Shown here: positions 2,438 to 39,578 of the stretch, one piece after another
Numbering within the stretch: position 1 is the first letter of the stretch
Layout: every line of letters starts with the position of its first letter
Source of the DNA: Mariniblastus sp.
GTDB taxonomy: Bacteria > Planctomycetota > Planctomycetia > Pirellulales > Pirellulaceae
Assembly: GCA_014237975.1 (NCBI GenBank)
Contig: JABACA010000028.1
Span: forward strand, 1 to 39,578
Reading direction: 5' to 3'
Length of the DNA: 39,578 nucleotides
Notes under the pieces: model-generated
Database searches by the model: none
What the model was told of the DNA's origin: nothing
What the model saw: the letters and a program-made list of their open reading frames with translations, nothing else
Program-made: the position numbers and the translations under genes

Positions 2438-5290
2438 GTGTCGGACCATCAAATCAGTTTGCGAGGCGTGCGAGTCCATAATTTACAGGATGTGGATTTG
2501 GATATTCCACACGGACAGTTGCTCGCCATTTGTGGTTTAAGTGGCAGTGGGAAATCCAGCTTGGCCTTTGATACGCTTTATGCAGAGGGCCAACGTCGAT
2601 ATATCGAGAGCTTGTCGCCCTACACCCGCCAGTTTCTCGAGCAACTGGGGAAGCCCGAGGCGGAACGGATTGAGGGCATTCCGCCGGCAATCGCCGTCCG
2701 CGCTGCACGGGGCACCGCCGGACCACGGGCCACCGTGGGTAGCGCTACGGAGGTGGTTGACTACCTGCGTTTGCTATATGCCAAGCTGGCGCAAATTAAC
2801 TGTGTCCATTGCCATACGTTGGTCACCCGCGATGATCCTCAAACGGTAGGCCATTTTTTTGAGGCGTTACCGGAGGGTTGCCGTTTTCAAATCGGGTTTT
2901 CTGTAGCGATCCAGGGGAATGAACTGACCGAAACGAAATTTCTTTTTGAGGGGTTGCGGCGGAATGGCTTCAGCCGAATCGTGATCGGTCAAACGACCTA
3001 TGATCTGGCAGGTTTTCCGGATCAGTCCGATGCGAACTTGCAGCAGCGGGTGGCCGGGAATACGGAGGCGTTTGTCATTGTTGACCGATTGACCGTTGGA
3101 TCAGCCGAAACAGACCGGGTGCGCGAATCACTGGAAACGGCATTTCAATTTGGCGGTGGTTGTGTGGTCCTGGTCCAGCAGGACCAAGACGATGTGGCAT
3201 CAGACGGGTTGACGATTGACGACCGCCATTGGGAACTCAAACGATTCAGTAAAAACTTGCTGTGTGATCAGTGTGGCACGGTCTATCCGGATCCCGAACC
3301 GAATCTGTTTAGTTACAACAATGCACTGGGTGCCTGTCCCGAGTGCGAAGGGTTTGGCAGTGTGCAGCGGTTTGATATCGACTTGATTGTTCCGGATGCC
3401 TCCAAGAGTCTTCGTGAAGGGGCGATTGCCCCATGGAATTCTCCCTCGTACCGCCACGAATTGGATGAACTGTTGGACTTGGCAGATGATTATGGTGTGC
3501 CGGTGGATGTTCCCTTTGACCAATTGTCAAAATCGGAAGTCGAGCTGCTTTGGACGGGGGTTCCGGAACGAGAATTTGGTGGTTTAAACGGTTTTTTTGC
3601 CTGGCTTGAAAAACGGAAATACAAGATGCATTTGCGGGTTTTCCTGAGTCGCTGGAGAACCTATGACCCCTGCCCTGTCTGTCATGGTGATCGGCTCAAG
3701 CCGGAAGTTTTGGCTTACCGAATCGAGAACCAAAGCCTGGCTGAAATGAGTCGTCAAAAGGTGTCTGATTTAAGGCAGGGATTCGAGGAACTTCAATTGG
3801 GTTCGGCCAATTCGGAGATCGCCGGCCGTGTGCTGCAACAGATACGTGTTCGACTCAAGTACTTGTGTGAAGTGGGTCTTGGTTACCTGGCCTTGGATCG
3901 ACCTTTGAGAACCTTGAGTGGTGGTGAAACCCAGCGGGTGGCACTGACCTCAAGCTTGGGTTCGCAGTTGGTGAACATGCTGTACGTATTGGATGAACCA
4001 TCAGCCGGTCTTCATCCTGGAGATATGCAGCCTCTGATCGAAGCGGTGCAGCAACTCAGTCAGCGCGATAATACGGTGGTTGTCGTTGACCATGAACCGC
4101 ATATGATCACGGCCGCACAGCGGGTCATCGAAATAGGACCCGAGGCGGGTTCTGCCGGCGGCCAGATTGTTTTCGATGGAACGATCAAGCAGATGCTGAG
4201 ATCGAAACAGAGTATGACGGGGCAATACATGGCCGGCAAACGGGGCCTGTTGGGCGAGGAGGTTCAGCGTCGTCCGGCCCGTGGATTCCTGCGTTTGACC
4301 GGAGCCCGTGGAAATAACCTCGATCACCTGACGGTCGAATTTCCGCTCGGTTGTCTCTGTCTGGTGACGGGTGTCAGTGGGGCAGGAAAAAGCACACTGG
4401 TTCAAAAAACGTTGTACGGAGCTGTTTGTAAACGTAAAGGCAAGACGGTTCAGCGTCCATTGGCATTTGATGACGTTTTCGGCGATAGCCAGTTCGATGA
4501 GATTGTGCTGATCGACCAGTCGCCGGTCGGGCGATCACCTCGCAGCAACCCGGTCACCTACGTCAAGGCGTTCGATGAAATCCGCAAGGCATTTGCGGAA
4601 ACGGTCGACGCCAAAACCAGGAACTTCAAAGCAGGACATTTTAGCTTTAACGTGGACGGAGGCCGCTGCAACAAGTGTCACGGAGATGGCTCTTTGTCGA
4701 TTGACATGCAATTCATGGCCGATATTTACATCAAATGCGATCAATGTCGGGGAACCCGTTACCGTGACGAGGTATTAAAGGTCCGGTATCGAGGCAAGAA
4801 TATACATGACGTGCTTAGTATGACCGTCCGTCAGGCCTTTTCGTTTTTCCGTGGACAACCCAAAGTTCAGGGTAAACTGAAGGCATTGATTGATGTGGGT
4901 TTGGACTATATCCGCTTGGGCCAGCCGGCCACCACGCTTTCCAGTGGCGAAGCGCAACGTTTGAAACTGGCGCTGTATTTGAATTCATCCAGGAAACGGC
5001 GTACGTTGTTCCTGTTGAACGAACCGACGTCGGGACTCCATATGCGGGACGTGGTGCGGCTGGTTGATTGTTTCGATGCCCTGATCAGCGTCGGGCATTC
5101 CTTCATCGTCATCGAACATAATTTGCAGTTGATCAAACACGCAGACTGGATCATTGACCTGGGGCCGGGAGCCGCCGACCTGGGAGGACAGATTGTTGTC
5201 CAGGGGACGCCCGAGCAGGTGGTTGAATGTGAACATTCAGTGACGGGTCGCTATTTGAAAACAGAACTTGAACCGCAGGTAAAACCGTGA
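2438..5290 (+). CDS. UvrA-family ABC ATPase (excinuclease subunit A-like) with altered ATPase motifs
   Basis: This protein of 950 residues has the full UvrA plan and near-normal length. Walker A1 (GLSGSGKSS, 33-41) is followed by a region of UvrB-binding-domain length, zinc Cys pairs (C277/C280 and C300/C303), signature 1 (LSGGE, 493-497) and Walker B1 (LDEP, 518-521). Walker A2 (GVSGAGKS, 645-652), C-terminal zinc Cys 744, 747, 767 and 770, and signature 2 complete it. Canonical UvrA scans DNA for damage and loads UvrB. Oddities: the first Q-loop segment that reads IEQK in E. coli UvrA is VRAA here (87-90), signature 2 is LSSGE (834-838), and Walker B2 is LLNEP with Asn861 in place of Asp. 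It may be a divergent second UvrA paralogue rather than the housekeeping copy. The start is GTG without a clear ribosome site. The stop overlaps the next gene's start (GTGA). Confidence 0.9.
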   Translation: MSDHQISLRGVRVHNLQDVDLDIPHGQLLAICGLSGSGKSSLAFDTLYAEGQRRYIESLSPYTRQFLEQLGKPEAERIEGIPPAIAVRAARGTAGPRATVGSATEVVDYLRLLYAKLAQINCVHCHTLVTRDDPQTVGHFFEALPEGCRFQIGFSVAIQGNELTETKFLFEGLRRNGFSRIVIGQTTYDLAGFPDQSDANLQQRVAGNTEAFVIVDRLTVGSAETDRVRESLETAFQFGGGCVVLVQQDQDDVASDGLTIDDRHWELKRFSKNLLCDQCGTVYPDPEPNLFSYNNALGACPECEGFGSVQRFDIDLIVPDASKSLREGAIAPWNSPSYRHELDELLDLADDYGVPVDVPFDQLSKSEVELLWTGVPEREFGGLNGFFAWLEKRKYKMHLRVFLSRWRTYDPCPVCHGDRLKPEVLAYRIENQSLAEMSRQKVSDLRQGFEELQLGSANSEIAGRVLQQIRVRLKYLCEVGLGYLALDRPLRTLSGGETQRVALTSSLGSQLVNMLYVLDEPSAGLHPGDMQPLIEAVQQLSQRDNTVVVVDHEPHMITAAQRVIEIGPEAGSAGGQIVFDGTIKQMLRSKQSMTGQYMAGKRGLLGEEVQRRPARGFLRLTGARGNNLDHLTVEFPLGCLCLVTGVSGAGKSTLVQKTLYGAVCKRKGKTVQRPLAFDDVFGDSQFDEIVLIDQSPVGRSPRSNPVTYVKAFDEIRKAFAETVDAKTRNFKAGHFSFNVDGGRCNKCHGDGSLSIDMQFMADIYIKCDQCRGTRYRDEVLKVRYRGKNIHDVLSMTVRQAFSFFRGQPKVQGKLKALIDVGLDYIRLGQPATTLSSGEAQRLKLALYLNSSRKRRTLFLLNEPTSGLHMRDVVRLVDCFDALISVGHSFIVIEHNLQLIKHADWIIDLGPGAADLGGQIVVQGTPEQVVECEHSVTGRYLKTELEPQVKP

Positions 5291-6354
5291 ACCAATCATC
5301 GAAAGATGGGCCGCCAGGATGGGGAGATGAAAAACTGGCCCGATACGAAAAACAGGTTCGCTTTACCCCTCTGGGGCGCGATGGACAGGTTCGGCTGCTG
5401 CAATCGTCGGCCGTGATCGTGGGCTGTGGTGCGTTGGGCACTGTCCAGGCCAATACACTGGCGCGTGCCGGGGTGGGCCGCTTGAGAATCATCGACCGCG
5501 ATTTCATCGAATTGGACAACCTGCAGCGGCAGGTGCTTTATAGCGAACAGGATTTGGGCCAGCCCAAAGCGGTGACTGCCTGTCAGAAAATCCAGGAAAT
5601 CAACAGCCAGGTCGATTGTGATCCGGTGGTCACCGATGTCGATTTTACCAATATTGAATCACTGATTGACTCGTACGACGTCGTGCTGGATGGCACGGAC
5701 AACTTCGAGACTCGCTTTCTGATCAATGACGCCTGTGTGAAAATGGAGATCCCCTGGGTCTACGGCGGTTGCCTTGGATGCGAAGGTCAAACCATGACAA
5801 TCCGCCCGGGCATTACGGCTTGTCTGAATTGCCTGATGCTCGATGGTCCCCCGCCGCCCGGCACGACGGCCACCTGTGATTCGGCTGGCATCCTGGCGTC
5901 GATCATTAACCTGATCGCCTCGATCCAGTCCCTCGAAGCGATCAAACTGTTATCCGGAAATGCCGAGGCGATCAGCCGGCACCTGCAGGTGTTTGACCTG
6001 TGGGGTCATCGCCATCAGCAGATCGACATGACGGATCTGCGAGATCGTGTCGACTGTCCCACTTGCAAACAGAAACAATTTCAATGGCTCTCCGGAGACC
6101 TGGCCGGGCATACGGCCATCCTCTGTGGGCGGAACGCGGTTCAATTGAGTTTTCCGGAACGGCCAATGCTGGACCTCGCGCGGCTGGCCGAACGGCTGGC
6201 GCCCCTGGGAGAGGTCGAACTCAACCCGTTTTTGCTGAGGTTCCAGGTGGGCGAAATGACGATCACCCTGTTTCCCGACAGCCGGGCGATCATTAACGGC
6301 ACCGAGGATCTGGCAATCGCCAAACGTCTCTATTCACAATATATCGGGGCCTGA
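5287..6354 (+). CDS. E1-like adenylyltransferase, ThiF/MoeB/HesA family
   Basis: The protein is 355 residues from a GTG start that overlaps the UvrA-like stop by four bases, implying translational coupling. It has a Rossmann motif GCGALG (46-51), the adenylation segment IIDRDFIELDNLQRQ (68-82) and LDGTDNFETRF (134-144). The zinc Cys pairs are C179/C182 and C257/C260, and there is a probable catalytic Cys197 in TTATCDSAG. Relatives adenylate the C-terminus of a small ubiquitin-like sulfur carrier (ThiS, MoaD) for thiamine, molybdopterin or related synthesis. About 90 extra C-terminal residues contain LCGRNAVQ, probably a second domain. No sulfur-carrier gene is in the window, so the partner is unknown. 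The last bases overlap the convergent VOC gene. Confidence 0.88.
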   Translation: MNQSSKDGPPGWGDEKLARYEKQVRFTPLGRDGQVRLLQSSAVIVGCGALGTVQANTLARAGVGRLRIIDRDFIELDNLQRQVLYSEQDLGQPKAVTACQKIQEINSQVDCDPVVTDVDFTNIESLIDSYDVVLDGTDNFETRFLINDACVKMEIPWVYGGCLGCEGQTMTIRPGITACLNCLMLDGPPPPGTTATCDSAGILASIINLIASIQSLEAIKLLSGNAEAISRHLQVFDLWGHRHQQIDMTDLRDRVDCPTCKQKQFQWLSGDLAGHTAILCGRNAVQLSFPERPMLDLARLAERLAPLGEVELNPFLLRFQVGEMTITLFPDSRAIINGTEDLAIAKRLYSQYIGA

Positions 6355-28283: not shown

Positions 28284-28833
28284 GGGTTGGGCTCCTTGGG
28301 CTCAATGGGTTGAGCAACTCCAGCATCTTATTTAATTCTCAGTGACTAGGTGGCCCAATGGCACACCGAGACCCTGACATTTTTGCGCAATGCAAATAGG
28401 TTGTGCCCTTGAAAGGCAACTCGCGCGCCAAAACAACAAAACCGGCTAAATCCAGTGGAAATAAGACTAAACCACCGAGATTCGCTCATTGTATGAGGAA
28501 ATGCAGGTTGCCCTTGGATCACAAAGTCGGTCACGGCGTACATTTCACGGCCTTTCATGGTCGACAACGAAGCGGTGCCTAATCGGGCCCTGGGCCTAGT
28601 GACATAATGTCAGAGATAGTCAAAACGACGTGCAGATTGGTCGTAAAACCGACAGAAATACTCCAATCGGTCGTTTTTGCTTGTGAATCGTGGGTTACAT
28701 TTTGTGCTATATCTGAATTGGCGGTTGCCAAATGTTGTTCCCATAACAAAATAGAGCTGTCACTGCACTTTTGCGTTTTTTCGCAGCTGACGTCTTTCCA
28801 ATATCGGTTGCAAATATTGCTAGGATCCGTTTT
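28284..28833. other. Intergenic region between divergent groES and zinc-ribbon gene
   Basis: This 550-base stretch must contain the groESL promoter. I looked for a CIRCE element (TTAGCACTC-N9-GAGTGCTAA) and did not see one. A similar pair, ATTGGTCGT and ATCGGTCGT, occurs near 28634 and 28665 with a short ACCGA/TCGGT hairpin between; its role is unknown. No RNA gene is recognised. Confidence 0.5.
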
Positions 28834-29700
28834 ATGGCGATCAAAGCTCAATGTGGAAGTTGCGGGACGAGTTTTAGCGCCAAAGACGAATTTGCCGGAA
28901 AACGGGTGAAATGCCCCAAATGCTCTCAGCCGATGACCATCGAACAACGGAGTCTGGTGGCTGGAACACGGCCAACCACGGTCAGTCTTGCCGGAGCCGC
29001 TGGACACAACCCGTTGTTGGATTTGCTCGACGAGGCGGGAGTTGAGTCAGTTCCCCAAGGGCCCATTTGCGAGAATTGTGGCGCTGATATGGAGCTAAAC
29101 GCTGTTATCTGCGTCGGTTGCGGCTTCAACATGTCAACCGGTTTGCAGTTGGAAACCGAGAGTTTTGAGGATCCAGCCGAGGCTCAAAGCGATGAAGAAA
29201 TTTCCGATGCCGACAGGATCATGGCGAAAGCCGAGCGGGAAATAGAGGAAATGCCCGTAACGGCGGTGGGACAGAACTTCGGTGACGGTGCCGACTCGTT
29301 CCTAATTGCCTTTGTCGGCATGATTGGGCTGCTAATTCTGGTGACCATCGGTGTAGGCATCATTTTCCTGATGGACTTTCTCGGTGACTCGATTGATCCG
29401 GCTTTGATCAGTTTTTATGCGTCGATCGGTATTTACGTATTATGTACAATCTGGATAACCATCATTGCTTTTATGGCAAAACCGGTACAGGGGATCATTT
29501 GTGTTTGTACAGGTGGTCTGTATTGCATCATTTTTGGTTTTCTAACGAGGGGTTTAATTCTCCCCGCCATCATTTTATGCACTTCGGTCGTTATTGGCCT
29601 TGTTTCGGGTGTATTTGCCTTTGCACCCAAAAATGAATTTGGGATGCAGATTCAGTCAATTCAGAGCTTCCTGGGCCAGTTCATTGCCTTGTCGGTATAA
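28834..29700 (+). CDS. Zinc-ribbon membrane protein
   Basis: From the ATG at 28834 this is 288 residues. An in-frame upstream start at 28771 would put 21 unrelated residues before the zinc ribbon, so 28834 is preferred, with TAGGA about ten bases upstream. The first zinc ribbon has C7, C10, C27 and C30 (QCGSCGTSF ... KCPKC), a pattern seen at the N-terminus of many planctomycete proteins. A second CENCG...CVGCG ribbon is near residues 85-105. An acidic linker leads to about four membrane helices in the C-terminal half. It may sense or recruit partners at the membrane, but the function is unknown. It lies 293 bases upstream of the RND transporter, on the same strand. Confidence 0.8.
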   Translation: MAIKAQCGSCGTSFSAKDEFAGKRVKCPKCSQPMTIEQRSLVAGTRPTTVSLAGAAGHNPLLDLLDEAGVESVPQGPICENCGADMELNAVICVGCGFNMSTGLQLETESFEDPAEAQSDEEISDADRIMAKAEREIEEMPVTAVGQNFGDGADSFLIAFVGMIGLLILVTIGVGIIFLMDFLGDSIDPALISFYASIGIYVLCTIWITIIAFMAKPVQGIICVCTGGLYCIIFGFLTRGLILPAIILCTSVVIGLVSGVFAFAPKNEFGMQIQSIQSFLGQFIALSV

Positions 29701-29993
29701 TCAACCAATTTTGACAAGCTTGCCATCAAAACTGCCTATTTTAGCGTGACTTTGACATGGACTTCTTAAGGCGGGACCGGTAACCTCAAACTGTCGATGG
29801 ATGCGTCAATGAACGTTTCCCGTTTCAAGACAGATAGTGTGACCGAAGGTTCGACTGTCGACATGCAAGTCATGGCTGCCCGGCCTCTTGTATTGTCGCG
29901 GCATGAGTTGGGCCAATTTCAGAAAACAGGCGTTTAGTTATTAGCGTTCGACCATTTTTTTCGAAACGGATTCCGATCTTTGGTACGTGCGCC

Positions 29994-32900
29994 ATGCTCA
30001 TTCTTTGCATGGTTTGTTTCTTGTTGCCATTTGCCTTGCGTGGAGCGCGCATGGCGGTAACCAGTATGCAAAACAACGTGGCGGATTGGTTGCCAGCAGA
30101 TTATGAAGAGACCAGGGAACTGCGTGAATTTCGCAAGTACTTTTTTGGTGATCAATTTGTTGTGATCAGTGGGCCTTGGTGTCGCGAGGGGGACCAAGTG
30201 TACACCAACCTGGTCCGGAAATTGCGAGAAGAATCTCTTGAATATGAACCGACACTGCGAGATTCCAAGCAGATTGAAGAACTGAGGGCCCACCGAAAAG
30301 GTGATGACCTCGGTCTCATGTATACCGGAAATTATCACGAAACGTGGGGCCAGCAACGAGAAAAGTGGTTGTTGGGTCTCAAGGGTCAGTGGTATTGGAT
30401 CAATCGTAAAGGCGAACTTTGGCGTTGGGACGGTCAAAACAACGTGATCCAAGGTGCCAAGCGCTCCATGGAACGTTCGGTCAGTGGACGCAACCAGGTA
30501 ACCGGGATTTACATTGATACCTTTGGTGAACCGCCGGATGACGAGAAAGGGATTGAAAATCCGTTTTACAGTGATCCCCAAAAACTTTGTGCGCGTCCAT
30601 TCAAATCGGTTACGACGGGGCCCGAGATCTTTGAAAAGATGGCCGGTCCCAATGGCACCATTCGAATCGGTATGTTTGGTGAAGGCGACGAGACGACCTT
30701 TCAGGCGAAAGTCGAAGCTCACAACCGTCTCACGGGAGCTCTGTTTGGTCCGACTCCGCAGGATACGTTTAAGTGGACGTTCGAGTCACTTTTGCAAAAC
30801 GTCGATGATCCATCCAAGTTGTCGATACTGAGATCGACTAATCAATACCGGGATCTATTTGAAAAGTTTATCGAGGTCGAAGTAGCTCAACGTTACGACG
30901 GTGATTTTGACCGGTTATTGAATGCTCCTCCGTCCGACAAACTTGAGATTTGGTATCGTCTCTGGGAAGAAGCATTGGAGCTGGAAGCTCCTGCAAGACA
31001 AACATGTATCATAGTGACGCTCAATGACCCGGTTATTGAGGAGATGGATCGTGCGGTGGGTCGACCCATTTTGGGCAAGCCAAGGGGCCGTATTCTGGAA
31101 CTGGCTACCGGTGAATGCGGTATCGATCCGGAAAATCTTCACTTGGGCGGGCCGCCTCGCGATAACGTAGCGATTGACGAAGAAGGGGCCAGTACGCTGC
31201 TTCGTTTAGTGAGTCTTTCGTTGATCATTGGAGTTGGCCTGGCTTACGCCTGTTTTCGTTCGATACCCGTCACAATGATGTTGTTTTTTGTGGGGGGGGT
31301 CGCGGCGATTTCCAGTTTGTCGTATGTCTGGTTTGCCGGGAGTACGTTGGACGCAATTCTGATGTCCATGCCGTCACTGGTCTATGTGCTGGGACTGTCG
31401 GGGGCAGTCCACATCGTTAATTACTATCGGGATGCCTGTCACGAAAGCGGCCCGAAATTAGCCGCGGAAATCGCCATTAAGCATGGTTGGTTCCCCTGTA
31501 CCCTGGCTGCATTTACAACCGGTTTGGGGTTGGTGTCGCTGTGTACCAGTAACCTGACGCCGATTCAGAAATTCGGTTTTTTCTCGGCAATTGCCACGAT
31601 GGCAACCGTGACATTGCTGTTTACCTTTCTGCCGGCTGCCCTGACGATTTGGCCACCCGGTTATAAAAAGGAAGACAAGTCCAAAGCGTTCAAGCGAACG
31701 GGGCTGGCTGCCCACGTCGGCCGATTTTGGCAACGAGTGGGTGAGTGGGTGGTGCGACACTACGGGTTAGTGGTCGTGACATCACTGTTGCTCATGGGTT
31801 TCTTTGCCTATGGGATTTCACGCGTGGAAACATCGGTGCACCTGCTGAAGCTGTTTGATGCCAAATCTAAAATTCTGGAAGACTATCGATGGATGGAATC
31901 CAATCTTGGAAAACTTGTTCCCATGGAATTGGTGGTTTGCATTGACGAAGATTCCCAAAAGGAAGCATGGTTGGGCAAAGAACGGGATAAGGCCAAAGCG
32001 AAACGCAAGGCTGAGCTGTTGGCTGCCGGCCAGCCCGTACCCGAGAATGATGAGGATTTTGAATTCGAGTATGACCACCTGGAGTACGACCTTAAGTATT
32101 CAGTGCTCGAGCGAATGGAATTGTCTTCGCGTGTTCGAACCCAGCTGGAACGTTTTTTCGGGCCGGATGGCCTCGACTATGTCGGTCCCGGTATGTCGAC
32201 AGACGTTTTTGCCCCGATGCACCTTGTCGATACCCAAGTGGATCCCGGTTTTGATAACGCGATAGAAACACTTAATAATCCACGCTATCGGTTTAACGCC
32301 CAGTTACAGACCAAGTACCCGGAAATACTGGAGGAAGATTATCTGGCCGTGGCTGGTAAATCCAACCTGGATTACCTTGAGGCGATGGCTGATAAATCGG
32401 ATCCAGAGATTTTTGGTCGTGAAATGTGGCGAATCAGTTTGCGATTGGCCGCGCTGAACGATGTCGATTACGGGAAATTCGTGGCGGATATCAAGTCGGT
32501 CGTGGAACCGATCATGACGGCTTACAAACAACGCACCCAGATCCTGAAGTCGATCCAGAAAAACAACGGTGACGACAGTTTGACCAAAGGGATGATACTG
32601 GTTTTCGGCCGGAATCCAGATAATCTGAGTGAAGAGATGGACAAGCAGATTGAACAGTCCCAGGATATATCCGAATTGGTCGACCAGACTTTTATTTTCT
32701 CGGATGCGTTGCAGGATCTGTTGGAGAATCGCGGCTACGTCAACAAGGATACAAAAGAGGGCAAGAAAAGCCTGAAATCGTACCGCTGGATTGATCCGGA
32801 TGATTTTGGCGAAGGACTGAAGACCTTCCCGACGCAGGATGCCCTCAAGCAATTTATCGAAGGGGAAGACTGTGCCAGTGTCGTCATCATCGAAGACGAC

Positions 32901-33863
32901 GAGTTGTTTGATATTGATTTCATCCGAAAACATGCTGGAGACAAATTCTTTGACAGTCGCCAACATCGATTTGAGATTGACCCGGTTACCAAAAAGGCAC
33001 TCCCGAATCAATTGACCGCGATGCAGGCCAAGAGGAGCGAGGGGCTCGATACGGATGTAGCGACTATTTACACGGGTATCATCCCGATTGTATACAAGGC
33101 CCAAAACCAGCTGTTGAGAAGTCTCGTGAACAGCATCGCGCTGGCCTTTGTAATGATTGCCGGCGTCATGATGTTGTTACTTCGTAATTGGCGAGGGCCA
33201 GTTAGCCCGGGTAATCTGCTTAATATTCCGGGTGGTGCGTTATCGATGTTGCCCAATATTTTTCCAGTACTGATTGTATTTGGGGCGTTGGGGCATCTGG
33301 GTCGTAAAGTCGATATTGGTTCGATGATGACGGCCAGTGTCGCGATGGGTGTGGCTGTTGATGATACGATTCACTTTTTGAACTGGTACCGTAAGGGACT
33401 GTCTCAAGGTCTGCGTCGTGTCGAGGCGATACGTTTGTCTTACAAGCGTGTAGCCACGGCCATGACTCAAACGACGTTAATTGGTGGATTGGGGCTTTCG
33501 GCGTTTGCCTTGAGTACGTTTACCCCCACCCAGGCATTTGGCGTTTTGATGCTTTTCTTGCTGGTAGCTGCTTTGGTTGGCGATCTGATCTTCTTGCCAG
33601 CCCTGCTGGCCAGTCCGTTGGGTAAATTTTTCGGTGAAGAAATTCCTCTAGAAGAAGTAGAGGCCATGCGGCTGGCCGCGGAACAGGATGGGGATTCGTC
33701 CGATGATGTTTCGATGCGGGTTGTGTCACAGCATGACAACGATGGTTCAGCTGGCGAAGATGAAGATGAAGCGGTCCACAAAGTGAAATACGACGTTCAT
33801 CCCGACAGTTTCCAGAACCTTCCGCCCAGCAAGGACAACCCGGGCGAATCTTCGGCCGGTTAG
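29994..33863 (+). CDS. RND-superfamily (MMPL-like) membrane transporter
   Basis: This protein has 1289 residues as written. It has the RND two-fold plan: an N-terminal membrane helix, a large extracytoplasmic domain, a helix bundle (about 400-550), another helix (about 590) and a second extracytoplasmic domain. The second bundle (about 1040-1207) carries GVAVDDTIHFLNWYRK (about 1118), the proton-relay type motif of this branch. The tail is acidic and probably cytoplasmic. Relatives export lipids, hopanoids or other hydrophobic molecules using the proton gradient, and planctomycetes carry several. The ATG at 29994 places the first helix at the very N-terminus; the frame stays open upstream to 29907, encoding a basic RPFFSKRIPIF stretch, but holds no ATG, GTG or TTG. 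The true start may be a rare codon upstream. Confidence 0.88.
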   Translation: MLILCMVCFLLPFALRGARMAVTSMQNNVADWLPADYEETRELREFRKYFFGDQFVVISGPWCREGDQVYTNLVRKLREESLEYEPTLRDSKQIEELRAHRKGDDLGLMYTGNYHETWGQQREKWLLGLKGQWYWINRKGELWRWDGQNNVIQGAKRSMERSVSGRNQVTGIYIDTFGEPPDDEKGIENPFYSDPQKLCARPFKSVTTGPEIFEKMAGPNGTIRIGMFGEGDETTFQAKVEAHNRLTGALFGPTPQDTFKWTFESLLQNVDDPSKLSILRSTNQYRDLFEKFIEVEVAQRYDGDFDRLLNAPPSDKLEIWYRLWEEALELEAPARQTCIIVTLNDPVIEEMDRAVGRPILGKPRGRILELATGECGIDPENLHLGGPPRDNVAIDEEGASTLLRLVSLSLIIGVGLAYACFRSIPVTMMLFFVGGVAAISSLSYVWFAGSTLDAILMSMPSLVYVLGLSGAVHIVNYYRDACHESGPKLAAEIAIKHGWFPCTLAAFTTGLGLVSLCTSNLTPIQKFGFFSAIATMATVTLLFTFLPAALTIWPPGYKKEDKSKAFKRTGLAAHVGRFWQRVGEWVVRHYGLVVVTSLLLMGFFAYGISRVETSVHLLKLFDAKSKILEDYRWMESNLGKLVPMELVVCIDEDSQKEAWLGKERDKAKAKRKAELLAAGQPVPENDEDFEFEYDHLEYDLKYSVLERMELSSRVRTQLERFFGPDGLDYVGPGMSTDVFAPMHLVDTQVDPGFDNAIETLNNPRYRFNAQLQTKYPEILEEDYLAVAGKSNLDYLEAMADKSDPEIFGREMWRISLRLAALNDVDYGKFVADIKSVVEPIMTAYKQRTQILKSIQKNNGDDSLTKGMILVFGRNPDNLSEEMDKQIEQSQDISELVDQTFIFSDALQDLLENRGYVNKDTKEGKKSLKSYRWIDPDDFGEGLKTFPTQDALKQFIEGEDCASVVIIEDDELFDIDFIRKHAGDKFFDSRQHRFEIDPVTKKALPNQLTAMQAKRSEGLDTDVATIYTGIIPIVYKAQNQLLRSLVNSIALAFVMIAGVMMLLLRNWRGPVSPGNLLNIPGGALSMLPNIFPVLIVFGALGHLGRKVDIGSMMTASVAMGVAVDDTIHFLNWYRKGLSQGLRRVEAIRLSYKRVATAMTQTTLIGGLGLSAFALSTFTPTQAFGVLMLFLLVAALVGDLIFLPALLASPLGKFFGEEIPLEEVEAMRLAAEQDGDSSDDVSMRVVSQHDNDGSAGEDEDEAVHKVKYDVHPDSFQNLPPSKDNPGESSAG

Positions 33864-34004
33864 TCTTTAATCTCGTTTGGACCAACCGCCAGAAGTTGGC
33901 TCTCAACTGGGGAATTCAGCGCCCTGAAATTGTTCGGTGGGGTTGGGTGACGGACTCCTGGATGTACCGACAGCGTCGCGCGGCAGTCCGCACCGGTCCG
34001 GTTG

Positions 34005-35027
34005 CTAATTATCGTAATTCAAGGAAATTCTATTTCCGGTTTTGGCACTTTCATTGGCGCTCAAAACGACTTGCATCGCCCGGTAGGCGTCGGTCAGATC
34101 AGCCCGGTTTCGGACGAGGCTTGTGACAGACCGATGAAACTGAATCAGCATTTGTTCACCTACGGAACGTTCCGATTCAAGCGATTCGGTATGTTGCCCG
34201 CCGTCGTCAAACCAAACCAGCGTATTGGGCAAGTCAATAAAAGCCATGCCCCGTTCACAACATACTTGGATGGAAGCTGGCCGGCGGAATGTCAACGCAT
34301 CTTTCCACTTGGCTGGAATATAGTGCCCCAGACTGAGTTGCGCCAGCGGCCGAATACCATCGTCTTCATAGGCCGGAAAATCCAGGCTTACCATTTGATA
34401 AAATGCCTGTCCGTCGTCTGTAGGTGATTCGTGACTGGCGCTTAAAACGGTTTCTGGCGGCATCCCAACCAGGTAGCGACACCAATCCACCAATTCCATG
34501 ATGTGCCGCCAAACCAACGGGCAGTAGTCGCCTCGCCGTAAATGGTCAGACTGGCCCTCCACCGGCATCCGCTCGTGGCAAAACAGAATTCTGGGCCGAC
34601 CCAGTCGAGTGGCAATCAGTTCCTTTAGTCGGAGTGTCGCCGGAGCGAATCGGCGCGGCAATTCCGCCATGAATGCAACGCCCGACGCGTCGACCCGTTG
34701 CCGAATCTCCCTGGCTTGATCAAAAGAGATGTCCAGTGCTGCGGAACTGTATACGGCTTTGCCTGCTTCGCAGGCGGCGATAATGGGTAAGGGCCCGATC
34801 CAGTCCGGGGCCAAGGCCAGTACCGCGTCAATGTCGTCACGTTCGATCATCGCCCGGAACCCGTCCATCGGAGTCGCCGAGAATTCGTTGGCGACCAACT
34901 TGGATTTTTCTGCCACCTCACAGCAGATCGCTTTCACTTCGAAGCGATCTGATAAAGCGAGCAGGGCCGGTCGGTGGCGCGATTGCCAAAAGTCACCGAG
35001 GCCAACAAGACCAACACGTAATTTCAT
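34005..35027 (-). CDS. Gfo/Idh/MocA-family protein lacking the usual EKP lysine
   Basis: This protein of 340 residues is the normal length for the family. The N-terminus MKLRVGLVGLGDFWQ is the Rossmann beta-strand and glycine loop. The segment that usually reads (C/V)EKP is AVYSSAALDISFDQA here, so the active-site Lys is missing. The later region with HIMELVDWCRYLVG matches the conserved helix near the substrate pocket. No signal peptide is present, so it is probably cytoplasmic. It may be a dehydrogenase that uses other residues, or a catalytically altered member; the substrate is unknown. It stands alone between the RND transporter and the thioredoxin-like gene. Confidence 0.82.
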   Translation of the reverse strand: MKLRVGLVGLGDFWQSRHRPALLALSDRFEVKAICCEVAEKSKLVANEFSATPMDGFRAMIERDDIDAVLALAPDWIGPLPIIAACEAGKAVYSSAALDISFDQAREIRQRVDASGVAFMAELPRRFAPATLRLKELIATRLGRPRILFCHERMPVEGQSDHLRRGDYCPLVWRHIMELVDWCRYLVGMPPETVLSASHESPTDDGQAFYQMVSLDFPAYEDDGIRPLAQLSLGHYIPAKWKDALTFRRPASIQVCCERGMAFIDLPNTLVWFDDGGQHTESLESERSVGEQMLIQFHRSVTSLVRNRADLTDAYRAMQVVLSANESAKTGNRISLNYDN

Positions 35028-35599
35028 GGACCGTCAATCAACCTGGTTAAATCGGATATGTCCGCCGGTTAACAACCAACACAGCAGCCGGCAAAACAGA
35101 TTATACCCATCGATTAAAAACAAACGTGTAAAAATCCTGCCGGTTGTTTTTTGATGTTCCCCGTCACTGAGCAGGTGCCATTATCATCAGAATTGCCGAT
35201 GGCAAGATTGAAAAATAAGCATTTTCCGACAAAGTCCCGTGATCATTAAATTTTAACAAGCCATTGCTTTTATTAGCTCGTCGGGTTGGTTTCCCGCCTG
35301 CCGGGCAGCGCGATGGCCGTCCTGGGTCGACCCATACAATTCGCAAAGTCGACTTGGATGTCCGTACATCCGGAATCGTTTAGCAGTTTGCACAATGTCT
35401 CGACAAATACTTGGCAGCATCGTTTGAAAACGGGCAATGCTGCCAGCACATCTGGTCGATACCGAAACAGGAGTCTTAGCTATTTTATTTCTTTTGCCAA
35501 GATTGCCATTTCTGGCCGGATGTATGACCAGCATACCTCGATGGCGGGTCAGGAATGCACCAATTTGGCGATTAGGACGCTATTGCAGGAGAATCAACG
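35028..35599. other. Intergenic region upstream of the thioredoxin-like gene
   Basis: This 572-base stretch holds overlapping open frames on both strands (35253-35534 minus, 35286-35603 plus). Neither has a recognisable product or a ribosome site. A degraded gene is possible but not shown. Confidence 0.4.
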
Positions 35600-36022
35600 A
35601 TGAATTTAGTTGCGGTAATGATGACGATTTCCGCGTTGGTTGTAACTGATGGTGACTCATCGGATTACAAAAGCGCATACGAAAAGGCTCAAGCGGGCAA
35701 TAAGCCGCTGTTAGTTCTCGTTACCGCTGAGTGGTGTCCGCCGTGTCAAAAGATGAAAAAGAAAACGATCCCCAAGCTGATGGCCAAAGAAGCATTCAAA
35801 GGTTTTCACTTTGCGACGGTTGACCTCGATAAAGAGGCCGCATTGGCTCGCAAGTTGATTGGATCACGCGGTGTACCCCAGTTGATCATGTATGAGCGGA
35901 AAAATGACCAGTGGATTCGACGATATTTGCGTGGATCCCAGACCCCGGAAAAGGTCGAAGCGTTCATTGCCCGGGCGGCGTTGATTCGGACGGCAGATGC
36001 CAAGGATGTGATTGAAAAATAA
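35600..36022 (+). CDS. Thioredoxin-like protein
   Basis: This protein of 140 residues has the active site WCPPC (45-49) in the context LLVLVTAEWCPPCQKMKKKT, and a cis-Pro segment GVPQLIMY near residue 96. An AGGAG ribosome site is eight bases before the ATG. The first 16 residues are hydrophobic and may be a short signal or anchor, suggesting an extracytoplasmic role in disulfide exchange, though this is weak. The CPPC pair, rather than CGPC, is found in several thioredoxin-like subgroups. A strong terminator follows the stop. Confidence 0.87.
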   Translation: MNLVAVMMTISALVVTDGDSSDYKSAYEKAQAGNKPLLVLVTAEWCPPCQKMKKKTIPKLMAKEAFKGFHFATVDLDKEAALARKLIGSRGVPQLIMYERKNDQWIRRYLRGSQTPEKVEAFIARAALIRTADAKDVIEK

Positions 36023-36048
36023 TCCCCATTGCTAATAGTAAAAATACC

Positions 36049-36080
36049 AACGCCGCGTGATAATTCACGCGGCGTTTTTT
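36049..36080 (+). terminator. Rho-independent terminator after the thioredoxin-like gene
   Basis: AACGCCGCGTGA (36049-36060), loop TAAT and TCACGCGGCGTT (36065-36076) form a perfect 12-bp stem followed by TTTT (36077-36080). It lies 27 bases past the stop at 36022. Confidence 0.93.
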
Positions 36081-36122
36081 GTTTGTGGCGACTTGGAACA
36101 TCCAGTGGGGACGGGGCCAGCG

Positions 36123-36800
36123 TTGAAGATTTCCGTTGTTATACCAGTGATTAACGAGGCACCGTTGATCGGAGATGCGATCCAGTCTGTCTGGGCGGCC
36201 GGTGTCGACCAAGTGATCGTGGTCGATGGCGGTTCGATTGACCAGACCCGCCAAATTGCCAGTCAGCAGTCGTGCGAATGGTTGGAATCAAAGCCAGGTC
36301 GGGCCCTTCAGCAAAACGTGGGAGCTGCCGCAGCGGATGGTGATCTGATTCTGTTTCTCCACGTCGATACGACACTTCCTGGCGATGCGGGCAGCCAGTT
36401 GAGAAACGCGGTCACCGGTGTGCGAGGATATGGAGGATTTCACCAGCAAATCATGAATCAACGTCGAATTTTTCGGTGGATCGAAAACGGGAATGCCCGT
36501 CGGGTTGGTCGATCAGGAATGGTCTATGGTGACCAAGGACTGTTTGTTACTCGCACCACTTGGCAGGAGCACGGTCCGTTCCCCGTAGAGCCGTTGATGG
36601 AGGACTATCTCCTTTCAAAGCGATTGAGAACGAGTTTGAAGCCGGTCTTGCTACCGGGTCCCTTGCTGGTCAATGCCCGCCGATGGGAGCAATACGGCGC
36701 CATTCGGCAAACGGTCCGCAACAAGCTGATTACTCTTGGCTACGGTTTGGGGGTTTCACCCAAACGTCTGGCTGCCTGCTACCGTCGACATGACCACTGA
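36123..36800 (+). CDS. Family 2 glycosyltransferase (rSAM/selenodomain-associated type)
   Basis: From a TTG at 36123 the product is 225 residues, beginning (M)KISVVIPVINEA as GT2 enzymes usually do. The frame is open back to a GTG at 36057, but that codon lies inside the upstream terminator hairpin, so it is rejected as a start. GT-A fold features are VVDGGSIDQT, the PGRALQQNVGAA segment and the metal-binding FLHVDTTLP. GMVYGDQGLFV and LMEDYLLSKRL follow in the acceptor half. The pattern resembles the TIGR04283-type transfer protein family, whose substrate is not known to me. No radical-SAM partner gene is in the window. Confidence 0.85.
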   Translation: MKISVVIPVINEAPLIGDAIQSVWAAGVDQVIVVDGGSIDQTRQIASQQSCEWLESKPGRALQQNVGAAAADGDLILFLHVDTTLPGDAGSQLRNAVTGVRGYGGFHQQIMNQRRIFRWIENGNARRVGRSGMVYGDQGLFVTRTTWQEHGPFPVEPLMEDYLLSKRLRTSLKPVLLPGPLLVNARRWEQYGAIRQTVRNKLITLGYGLGVSPKRLAACYRRHDH

Positions 36801-37071
36801 ATGATTGCGACGGAATAGCGAGGGAGAGTTTGGGTTGCTTGTTAGACCGAATCGGTGGTCGGCAAGTTTGACAGTGAGAATCGGCAGCGGACTTGGAATT
36901 GTCACCCCTTGCGCAACCTGACCAATCGTTGTGAACGTCACGGGGCCCTCCGGAACGAACCGCTTGCCGCTAAACCTCCAATAAATGGTCGTGAACGGTC
37001 AATAAACATACGATGAATCAGCTAATGCCGTGTTGTAGAACTACAAACATAGTTTTAAGTGGGAGTTCGTC

Positions 37072-37695
37072 TTGATCAAGCAAATTGAATCAACGAGTGC
37101 CAGTCGGTTTTTGCTTTTTGGAATCGTGGTGCTACTCATCGGTTTAATCGCCGTTATTTGGCCACTCATGGTTGAAAAGGGACTTCTCTGGATCATTGGT
37201 ATCCTGATGATCGTGGGTGGCTGTACCCAGGCAATCAAGGGGCTCCAGTCCGGCGAGAGAAATGATAAATCATTTAATTTGATCGCAGGATTGCTGTTTG
37301 CCGTAATTGGGATTGTGATCATCGTTTGCTGGTTTTCGCTACTCGCGTTCTTTACCTTGATCATTGGTATCCTGTTCCTCCTGCAGGGGGTCTGGACACT
37401 GATGGTGGCATTGTCTGCGCGACATTCCCAAGGCCATCTCGTGATGCTGTTGAGTGGCGTCCTGTCAATAATCATTGCCATACTGATCCTGGCCAGGTGG
37501 CCAAGTTCATCCGAGTATGTTGTTGGCATCCTGTTTGGAATCAACCTGATCTTTTGTGGGGCGGCAATGTTGGCCCTCGGCTCCACGTTAAAAAATGCGG
37601 TCCCCGCCGTTGTTGAAGGCCATGCCGAGCCGGCTGCTCCCACTGAGACGAGCCCTTCAGCTGAAGCGCCACCGGAGAACAAGGGCGGCTCCTGA
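37072..37695 (+). CDS. HdeD/DUF308-like integral membrane protein
   Basis: This protein of 207 residues starts at TTG (37072), with GGGAG six or seven bases before. It has about six hydrophobic helices in pairs (for example LLFGIVVLLIGLIAVIWPL and LLWIIGILMIVGGCTQAI), the repeat pattern of the HdeD acid-resistance family. A hydrophilic tail rich in Ala, Pro and Glu follows residue 175. HdeD is linked to acid tolerance in enterobacteria, but related proteins in other phyla have no known job. It is a single gene with a terminator about 115 bases downstream. Confidence 0.85.
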   Translation: MIKQIESTSASRFLLFGIVVLLIGLIAVIWPLMVEKGLLWIIGILMIVGGCTQAIKGLQSGERNDKSFNLIAGLLFAVIGIVIIVCWFSLLAFFTLIIGILFLLQGVWTLMVALSARHSQGHLVMLLSGVLSIIIAILILARWPSSSEYVVGILFGINLIFCGAAMLALGSTLKNAVPAVVEGHAEPAAPTETSPSAEAPPENKGGS

Positions 37696-37943: not shown

Positions 37944-38342
37944 TCAACTCCAGATATCGCGATCCAGCATCCGGTAATTGATCGCCTCGGCCAGGTGCTC
38001 GATTTGAATCTCGTTCGATGCGTCGAGGTCGGCAATCGTGCGGGCCAGGCGGAGCACTTTGTCATGGGCTCGCGCACTCAACCCGAGCTCATCGAAACTC
38101 GTTTTCAACAAATCCATGCAGGGCCGGTCCAACGGGCAATGATTGCGAATCTGTTTGCTGGACATTTGAGCGTTGTACATGACGGAGGTGTCCGAGAAAC
38201 GCTCGTATTGAACTTTCCGGGCTGCCGTCACCAGTTCCCGGATATCGGCACTCGAAGTACCTGCTACCTTGGAAGAAAGTTCCTTGAAATGGGTGCCCGG
38301 CACTTCCACGTGGATATCGATCCGGTCTACCAATGGCCCACA
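37944..38342 (-). pseudogene. comM: 3' fragment of comM/yifB (Mg-chelatase-like AAA+ protein), cut by an insertion
   Basis: The minus strand encodes GPLVDRIDIHVEVP, then the ComM C-terminal domain with SSADIRELVTAARKVQYERF, LGLSARAHDKVLRLARTIADL and EHLAEAINYRMLDR, ending at the stop at 37944. Full ComM is about 500 residues; only about the last 130 are present. Going upstream, homology stops at the Gly of GPL (about 38339). The next codons read Cys, Lys, Ile, Thr and then a TAA at 38352-38354. The rest of the AAA+ core is not in the window. ComM is a hexameric helicase that promotes branch migration in natural transformation, so the disrupted gene should be non-functional unless it is restored by excision. 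The adjacent serine recombinase is the probable cause. Confidence 0.88.
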
Positions 38343-38408
38343 CTTGATTGTTTACCCATATAGAATATATTCACGGTCTGACCTGGGAAATTCGTTTTGA
38401 GGTAATCA
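38334..38408. other. Probable hybrid attachment site (comM/element junction)
   Basis: The left part (to about 38342) is comM sequence and the right part leads directly into the recombinase gene. Serine integrases usually sit beside their attachment site. A 10-bp palindrome, GAATATATTC, lies at 38363-38372. The exact crossover dinucleotide cannot be fixed from one end; GT or GG in the comM codons AGT-GGG is possible. Confidence 0.55.
38399..38403 (+). promoter_or_regulatory. Ribosome binding site of the serine recombinase
   Basis: GAGGT lies five bases before the ATG at 38409 and supports that start. Confidence 0.65.
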
Positions 38409-39578
38409 ATGACAATCGCACATTCCTATTCGAGATTTTCACATCAAAACCAAGCCGACGGCGATTCGTTTCGTCGGCAAATTCAAGCGACAAAGGACTG
38501 CTGCAAACGAAACGGCTGGAAGTTAAGCAATCAGCGGTACCACGATGCCGGAAAATCCGGATTTAAAGGCGACCAGCAGAAACAGCTGGGGCGATTATTG
38601 GATTTCATCCGTGACGGAAAAATTGCTGCTGGTGATATCTTGATTGTCGAAAACATTGATCGCCTTAGCCGGAAGGGCATTCGGGCGACCCAAGGTCTGT
38701 TTAACGAAATTTTAGATGCCGGAATTGAGGTCGTTATCCTTTCGCCAACGGAAATGAAATTCACGGCAAGTGATAGTGATGACATTTCGCAAGCCATAAT
38801 CCTGGCGACAATGGCCTACCAGGCAAATCAGTATTCGTTGAACCTATCCCAGCGGGTAAAAGCGGCGAACAGCAAAAAGCGCAAAGATTGGGTCGACGGC
38901 AAGACTGTTAAAGTTAGCCCAATTCTTCCCGCGTGGATCGAAGAAACTGGTCCTGGAAAATTGAAGGTTAGGAAGGAGGCTGCAAAGGTAATTCGCTACA
39001 TTTTCAAAAGGACCGTAGATGGTGTTGGACGAAAAACGCTAGTTCGGGAATTAAACGAAAAGTTCAAACCTATTGCATCGCGCAGAAATACAACTGGCTG
39101 GAACGAACAGTATCTAAAGAATTTGATTACGACGCGACGGGTTTTGGGCGATGCTGTTAGCACCGTGACCGGCGAAGAATTCGAAGGAATATACCCGCCG
39201 GTCATCGACGAACGAACATGGAAAGCAGCGAACGCGGCTTCTAAACGCCGAACGTCGCAACGTGGTCCTTCCGCTAAGCGGGTGAATCTGTTCGCTGGTG
39301 TTCTTTTTCACGCAAAAGATCAATGCCCGATGCACTTTACGTCATACAGTCAAAAACGGGCGGATGGGACGCGAAAACAATATCATCGGTATCGTGCAAA
39401 AAAACACGTTAACGGACTGAAAAATGCAAGTTCCGCGACGGTTGACGTTACAACGTTTGAACATTTGGTATTTGAATTTTTGCCGGAAATGAAACTCGGA
39501 AAACGCAAGCGCGACCGTTTCAAGGAAAAAATGGATGAACTGGCGGCTGTTCAAAACCAAATTCGTGAAATGGAAAAC
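38409..39578 (+). CDS. Large serine recombinase/integrase, C-terminus beyond the window
   Basis: The plus strand is open for 390 codons from the ATG at 38409 to the window end with no stop. The resolvase domain shows the catalytic YSRFS (Ser11, Arg9), GDSFRRQ (18-24) and ENIDRLSRKG (81-90, with Arg85 and Arg88). A long helix leads into the recombinase DNA-binding domain (about 165-285: KVIRYIFKRTVDGVGRKTLVRELNEK, then YPPVIDERTW). The region where a zinc ribbon is expected (about 293-332, LFAGVLFHAKDQCPMHF) has only one Cys, so the usual two CxxC pairs are missing. A charged helical stretch at 365-390 begins what is probably the coiled coil. Such enzymes cut at two sites with a 2-bp stagger to integrate or excise DNA. 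It reads away from the comM remnant. Confidence 0.93.
   Translation, partial: MTIAHSYSRFSHQNQADGDSFRRQIQATKDCCKRNGWKLSNQRYHDAGKSGFKGDQQKQLGRLLDFIRDGKIAAGDILIVENIDRLSRKGIRATQGLFNEILDAGIEVVILSPTEMKFTASDSDDISQAIILATMAYQANQYSLNLSQRVKAANSKKRKDWVDGKTVKVSPILPAWIEETGPGKLKVRKEAAKVIRYIFKRTVDGVGRKTLVRELNEKFKPIASRRNTTGWNEQYLKNLITTRRVLGDAVSTVTGEEFEGIYPPVIDERTWKAANAASKRRTSQRGPSAKRVNLFAGVLFHAKDQCPMHFTSYSQKRADGTRKQYHRYRAKKHVNGLKNASSATVDVTTFEHLVFEFLPEMKLGKRKRDRFKEKMDELAAVQNQIREMEN

Follow-up and report, generated by a model that had tools for sequence, protein, structure and literature searches.

A large serine recombinase beside a split comM gene very likely marks one boundary of an integrated element in Mariniblastus

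The right end of contig C210 of a Mariniblastus sp. draft genome very likely represents one boundary of an integrated mobile element whose large serine recombinase (LSR) recombined attP with an attB inside comM. The window analysed is this complete contig of 39,578 bp, part of an assembly of 5.0 Mb in 404 contigs; C210 itself stops at position 39578, where the rightward sequence ends. The initial annotation had proposed an LSR element inserted in comM, and this proposal was supported by a single split comM in the genome, by collinear intact comM genes in relatives and by related LSRs located in comM with the same layout.

The end of the contig carries the final 131 codons of comM. The Pfam family Mg_chelatase_C (PF13335) matched over 37944-38342 of the minus strand (E 4.9e-33), and in an alignment with the intact comM protein of the same-genus genome G011 the piece covered residues 408-539 at 83% identity. 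According to this comparison, host-like sequence starts at Gly409 of SGPLVDRID, confirming the earlier observation that the comM frame breaks off in the GPLxDRID segment. Upstream of Gly409 the frame consists of element DNA, with Ser408 replaced by Cys and an in-frame TAA four codons further up. The last clearly comM base is 38339, leaving a gap of 69 bp to the LSR ATG; the reported adjacency of the serine recombinase to the comM end was thus correct, while its distance had been put at about 65 bases. Within the junction, the 7-mer GGTAAAC at 38350-38356 (minus strand) resembles the attP arms of the elements in genomes G637 and G756. Because this 7-mer occurs nine times in the window, it is offered as a weak hint at a possible recombinase half-site. 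Coordinates of the features are given in Table 1.

Table 1. Features around the comM boundary in the window
Feature	Position	Strand	Basis
Host genes flanking comM on its 3' side, outside the element	28747..37695		Collinear with G005, and with G011 up to the limit of its contig
comM 3' fragment (G409 to stop; Mg_chelatase_C domain), severed from the N-terminal part	37944..38339	-	Pfam and comparison with intact comM
Element-comM junction (one att half-site); host to about 38339-38343, then element DNA	38333..38362		Comparison with intact comM
Large serine recombinase, N-terminal 390 aa; incomplete at the contig end	38409..39578	+	Pfam, motifs, alignment

The recombinase frame, opening with the ATG at 38409, comprises 390 codons and is still open at the contig end. 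It matched the Pfam families Resolvase (PF00239, E 8.9e-22) and then Recombinase (PF07508, E 1.8e-11), both over the cut-offs, and contains the Y-x-R-x-S and DRLSR motifs. Residues Y6, R8, S10, D85, R86, S88 and R89 (L033 numbering) were invariant in all seven aligned LSRs, including that of the window; Y6, R8 and S10 form the catalytic Tyr/Arg/Ser motif. The stretch after the Recombinase domain aligns with zinc-ribbon LSRs and lacks the paired cysteines, with one Cys left, and the zinc-ribbon family PF13408 gave no Pfam match in the window LSR. This region is a usual LSR feature, and its cysteines were not treated as strictly required for assignment to the class; the pair is also missing in L033, L171, L035 and L174, which sit at comM breaks. 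An extra C-terminal region in L033 and L171 resembles, by eye, the core-binding domain of tyrosine integrases, with no Pfam match. Relatives of the window LSR in whole genomes shared at best 31-33% identity with it, and no close relatives were found in genome contigs (single-protein scan) or in viral contigs. Among phage sequences, 51 records matched, all below 60% identity; the highest value among the 20 listed was 31%.

The comM gene of the source genome is very probably split in place. The genome contains one comM N-terminus, at 10341-11507 of contig C46 and stopping 2 bases short of the contig end, and one C-terminus, that of C210. The matching 5' piece expected by the initial annotation therefore exists and complements C210, but it lies on another contig and not downstream on C210. 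C46 stops about 50 bp before the junction, and residues 392-407 of the G011 protein (about 16 codons) are present in neither contig. No third contig with these codons was detected either in a search to E 10 or with the degenerate pattern QIE-[RK]YMGKI (up to 2 mismatches, 0 matches), and the ends of C210 and C46 matched other contigs over chance lengths only (E 0.3 and above). A search of the genome with the full G011 comM to E 10 returned six further weak matches, none with an E value below 0.06, and the Pfam Mg_chelatase search yielded one strong match (C46) and three barely above the cut-off. Neither search revealed a complete comM at another place in the draft, so that the possibility of a second, whole copy raised earlier met with weak matches only. 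A profile of related LSR C-termini, applied to the continuation of the LSR, matched C210 alone, and the far junction and cargo of the element were not found in the assembly by the contig-end, missing-codon and LSR C-terminus searches.

In the same-genus genomes G011 and G005, the C46 genes are followed directly by an intact comM and then by the C210 genes, so that these relatives keep comM whole in the same gene order. Other relatives compared (e.g. G018 and G021) have the same genes on either side, but comM and the C210 genes are several kb farther apart. In 19 of 27 same-genus genomes the comM frame crosses the site without interruption and is at least 513 aa long (that of G017 leaves its contig further on); in the remainder, four frames run off the contig end before 513 aa and four genomes gave no comM match. 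LSR homologues at E ≤ 1e-10 were present in 20 of 396 sampled genomes of the order, among which the source genome (G000) was the only one of its genus. Given the unbroken gene order around comM in these relatives and their uninterrupted frames, the insertion very probably occurred in place, and it is seen in this genome alone of the genus where the site is readable. Contig breaks within comM of G017, G020, G022, G010 and G007 were considered as extra insertions and dropped, as these frames run off contig ends. Separately, G056 (C153:38569-38709) and G050 (C31:21608-21742) carry second copies of roughly the last 45 comM codons, about 0.7-2 kb from the full comM; these could be leftovers of elements integrating near the 3' end of the gene.

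In a sample of the phylum, an LSR homologue at E ≤ 1e-20 was found in 6 of 392 genomes, the source genome included. A comM fragment was present within the 1.5-kb flank of 8 of 26 related LSR loci from the order and phylum samples. At four planctomycete loci (L033, L171, L035 and L174) the comM 3' fragment stands head to head with the LSR, with gaps of 61, 68, 72 and 73 bp, respectively, as measured from the comM match to the first possible LSR start codon (69 bp in the window). Given these four related loci, the adjacency of comM and LSR in the window is more than chance. Among named genomes, a comM fragment lies beside 4 of 15 LSR relatives, namely in Rhodopirellula sallentina (the G368 locus, from the same family as the source genome), two other planctomycete MAGs (one of them the G202 locus) and an Akkermansiaceae MAG; the fetched stretches of the other 11 contained none.

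The full-comM search covered 16 of the 23 other LSR-bearing genomes, the seven left out (G157, G161, G230, G287, G397, G259 and G383) being among the weaker LSR homologues (E 7e-13 to 1e-11). comM was split in ten of the 16 (G368, G386, G202, G078, G648, G564, G756, G637, G257 and G338), a proportion that applies to genomes chosen for carrying the LSR and is not a frequency in the phylum, and whole in six (G088, G253, G108, G097, G099 and G147). G147, first taken as split, was reclassified as whole because a single open frame of 577 aa, containing about 22 extra codons, holds both of its comM matches. As in the source genome, the two comM pieces of G368 and G202 are on different contigs. In G257 and G338 the LSR does not directly adjoin the nearest comM break and is located about 3.3 and 1.9 kb from it, respectively.

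Across these genomes comM is broken in five regions, given here in G011 numbering: about residue 247, just before GPPGSGKT (G386, G637, G756, G564, G257 and G338); about 305-310 (second break of G648); about 330, in the Walker B sequence GVLFLDE (G368, G202 and G648); about 369, in STTFPADF (second break of G338); and 399-409, with G078 at Q399/I400 and the window at S408/G409. Two genomes are broken twice, with comM in three pieces each (G338:C1:746272-768745 and G648:C1:7852085-7984227). The distance between comM ends was 11.5 kb in G386, 11.6 kb in G637, 14.4 kb in G078, 20.7 kb in G756, 34.5 kb in G257 and 37.2 kb in G564. Near one end of the 34-kb stretch of G257, an inverted comM fragment (residues 252-349) was observed at C1:2037074-2037367.

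The palindrome test covered six genomes in which a single contig carries both comM ends; G338 and G648, each with two breaks, remained unscored. The inferred attP was strongly palindromic in four of the six elements (16-19 of 20 positions); random placements for these four scored 14 at best, with 0 of 200 as good in each case. The score was at background in G564 (11; 88 of 200 random placements as good) and G078 (12; 26 of 200). By eye, the rebuilt empty attB reads in frame in the four elements with a strong palindrome. Palindromic arms together with an in-frame rebuilt attB are as predicted for site-specific LSR recombination.

Phylogenetic analysis of the LSRs was based on 24 of 27 rows; L048, L049 and L050 were omitted as near-copies of L047. 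The window LSR pairs with L034 of G097 (100/99), a genome with an intact comM. The catalytic motif of L034 is degraded, reading YAGFL instead of Y-x-R-F-S, with the catalytic Arg and Ser lost. Together with L033, L171 and L035, these two form a five-row clade (100/97) with a four-row fork inside it (93/80). L033, L171 and L035 all adjoin a comM broken at about 330, some 80 codons upstream of the window break, with gaps of 61-72 bp. The elements of G368 (same locus as record L230, R. sallentina SM41), G648 and G202 have LSRs of this clade, which stand head to head with the comM 3' fragment as in the window, but these elements break comM at about 330 (GVLFLDE) rather than at 409. The simplest reading of the five tree rows suggests that the target position has shifted within one gene. 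In the same tree, drawn open, ten LSRs without the zinc-ribbon cysteine pair (the window LSR, L033, L034, L035, L037, L038, L042, L052, L171 and L174) group together (94/91), and the eight rows of their sister group keep a C-x2-C pair.

ComM is a branch-migration helicase of natural transformation. We tentatively consider comM a docking gene with multiple berths, in which one LSR lineage might stay loyal to the gene while its recognition shifts between conserved motifs, so that several elements could occupy one comM at once, as in G338 and G648. Disabling ComM might then be part of the elements' gain, and the window might represent a fresh shift from the 330 to the 409 site.

Other explanations for the right end of C210 were weighed against these data. 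It is very improbable that a rearrangement or deletion put a stray recombinase gene beside a comM remnant, with no discrete element and no targeting of comM. A single boundary is seen, and the other end and cargo were not found in the assembly; however, G011 and G005 have the same genes in the same order on either side of comM, three members of the clade adjoin a split comM in the same layout with nearly the same gap, and the two-ended related elements have rebuildable empty sites. Hardly credible, too, is a chimaeric C210, with comM intact in the organism and the LSR derived from another member of the metagenome. Fragmentation of the draft into 404 contigs, the end of C46 inside comM and the comM contig breaks of the five same-genus drafts named above would fit such an error, yet C210 crosses the junction and continues for about 1.2 kb, and it is very unlikely that a false join would place comM next to a recombinase whose clade targets comM, and in the arrangement seen in its relatives. 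The probability of a Tn7-like island carrying the serine recombinase as passenger cargo is very low: AbaR islands do insert in comM of Acinetobacter by Tn7-like transposition and so share the target gene with the window, but here an LSR begins 69 bp in from the boundary, where an integrase would be expected beside its att site, comM fragments recur within 1.5 kb of related LSRs at the loci counted above, and no Tn7-type gene is present in the visible 1.2 kb (one boundary in view, its one gene an LSR).

In LSR-mediated insertion into comM, the preferred explanation, attP of the element circle would pair with attB at the comM codons for SGPLVDRID (about residues 407-410). LSR dimers would cut both sites at the central dinucleotide and swap strands, generating attL and attR; pairing, dinucleotide cutting and strand exchange are established steps for LSRs in general. 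The host would be left with an N-terminal ATPase piece without its C-terminus (C46) and a C-terminal piece without the gene start (C210). Of the products of this recombination, one junction was recovered. The exact crossover dinucleotide, the far att site and the size and cargo of the element belong to the inferred part of this model; the element may still be mobile, and ComM function has presumably been lost.

Similar arrangements occur on viral contigs. In IMG/VR, searched for LSR frames with three LSR queries only, such a frame was located within about 100 bp of the comM end in 14 of the best 80 of 101 comM-matching loci (L095, L104, L109, L118, L122, L124, L128, L136, L143, L148, L157, L165, L167 and L168) and within 2 kb of it in three further loci (L138, L144 and L154). 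The breaks of L104, L165 and L168 fall in or just after SGPLLD and that of L095 near PQ, close to the window break and not at it. In the G078 element and viral contig L095, comM is broken in the same conserved region as in the window, at about Q399/I400, but their break lies about 27 bp upstream of that in the window, and the LSR of G078 stands very far away in the tree. Acetoanaerobium phage ANDSL2_ph1 (L082, PP197248.1) carries at 3929-6089 its own comM fragment, from about residue 222 to NPCPC, beside an LSR integrase.

The cargo between comM ends was scanned in 47 of 71 predicted frames of the G368 and G648 stretches and in 73 of 169 frames of seven other genomes; all matches belong to the elements of these relatives and not to that of the window, and the families named are among those listed, the 25 most frequent per tally. 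In G368 and G648 they included DNA methylases and the Pycsar cyclase and TIR effector, Shedu, GmrSD, HEPN and Schlafen families. The stretches of the seven other genomes also gave matches to restriction, DISARM-type and Argonaute proteins. The 11.5-kb G386 element encodes a terminase, the G257 stretch an Abi-like protein, and the G564 stretch a prophage set of major head protein, portal and tape-measure genes. Many proteins between comM ends (G368, G648 and the seven others; L205-L214 and L223-L227) match anti-phage defence families.

The initial annotation had viewed LSR use of comM as an unexpected convergence with AbaR islands. This idea fails because the magnesium chelatase/ATP-dependent protease genes, the family of comM, are the target of 12.4% of predicted site-specific LSRs (Durrant et al. 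2022, PMC10083194), and because phage WO sr1WO uses an LSR to insert itself into the magnesium chelatase gene of Wolbachia (PMC9203015; also PMC5447182). DNA competence genes are also described as enriched among LSR targets (PMC10083194). Like the window element, the LSR elements of Durrant et al. interrupt coding sequences of this gene family; in contrast to the mapped break reported here, the passages available give no position within the gene, and the string 'planctomyc' does not occur in the main text. As in the window, integration of sr1WO leaves gene parts on both sides of the element, but sr1WO is a Wolbachia prophage (PMC9203015), whereas of the present element one boundary was found in the assembly. 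Among titles and abstract openings of an incomplete literature collection, none described planctomycete cases or a single comM with more than one LSR site, and the gene names were not found in the text of PMC12884075.

The LSR element in comM is thus a real and well-supported further case of a known insertion type, and the part worth following is retargeting within the gene. The data add planctomycetes, some with single-contig genomes, to the hosts whose comM serves as an LSR docking site, with one gene broken in at least five regions in the planctomycete group. Related LSRs at different positions in one gene provide a natural series for studying how LSR specificity changes, and raise the question of whether an element gains from the loss of a transformation helicase.
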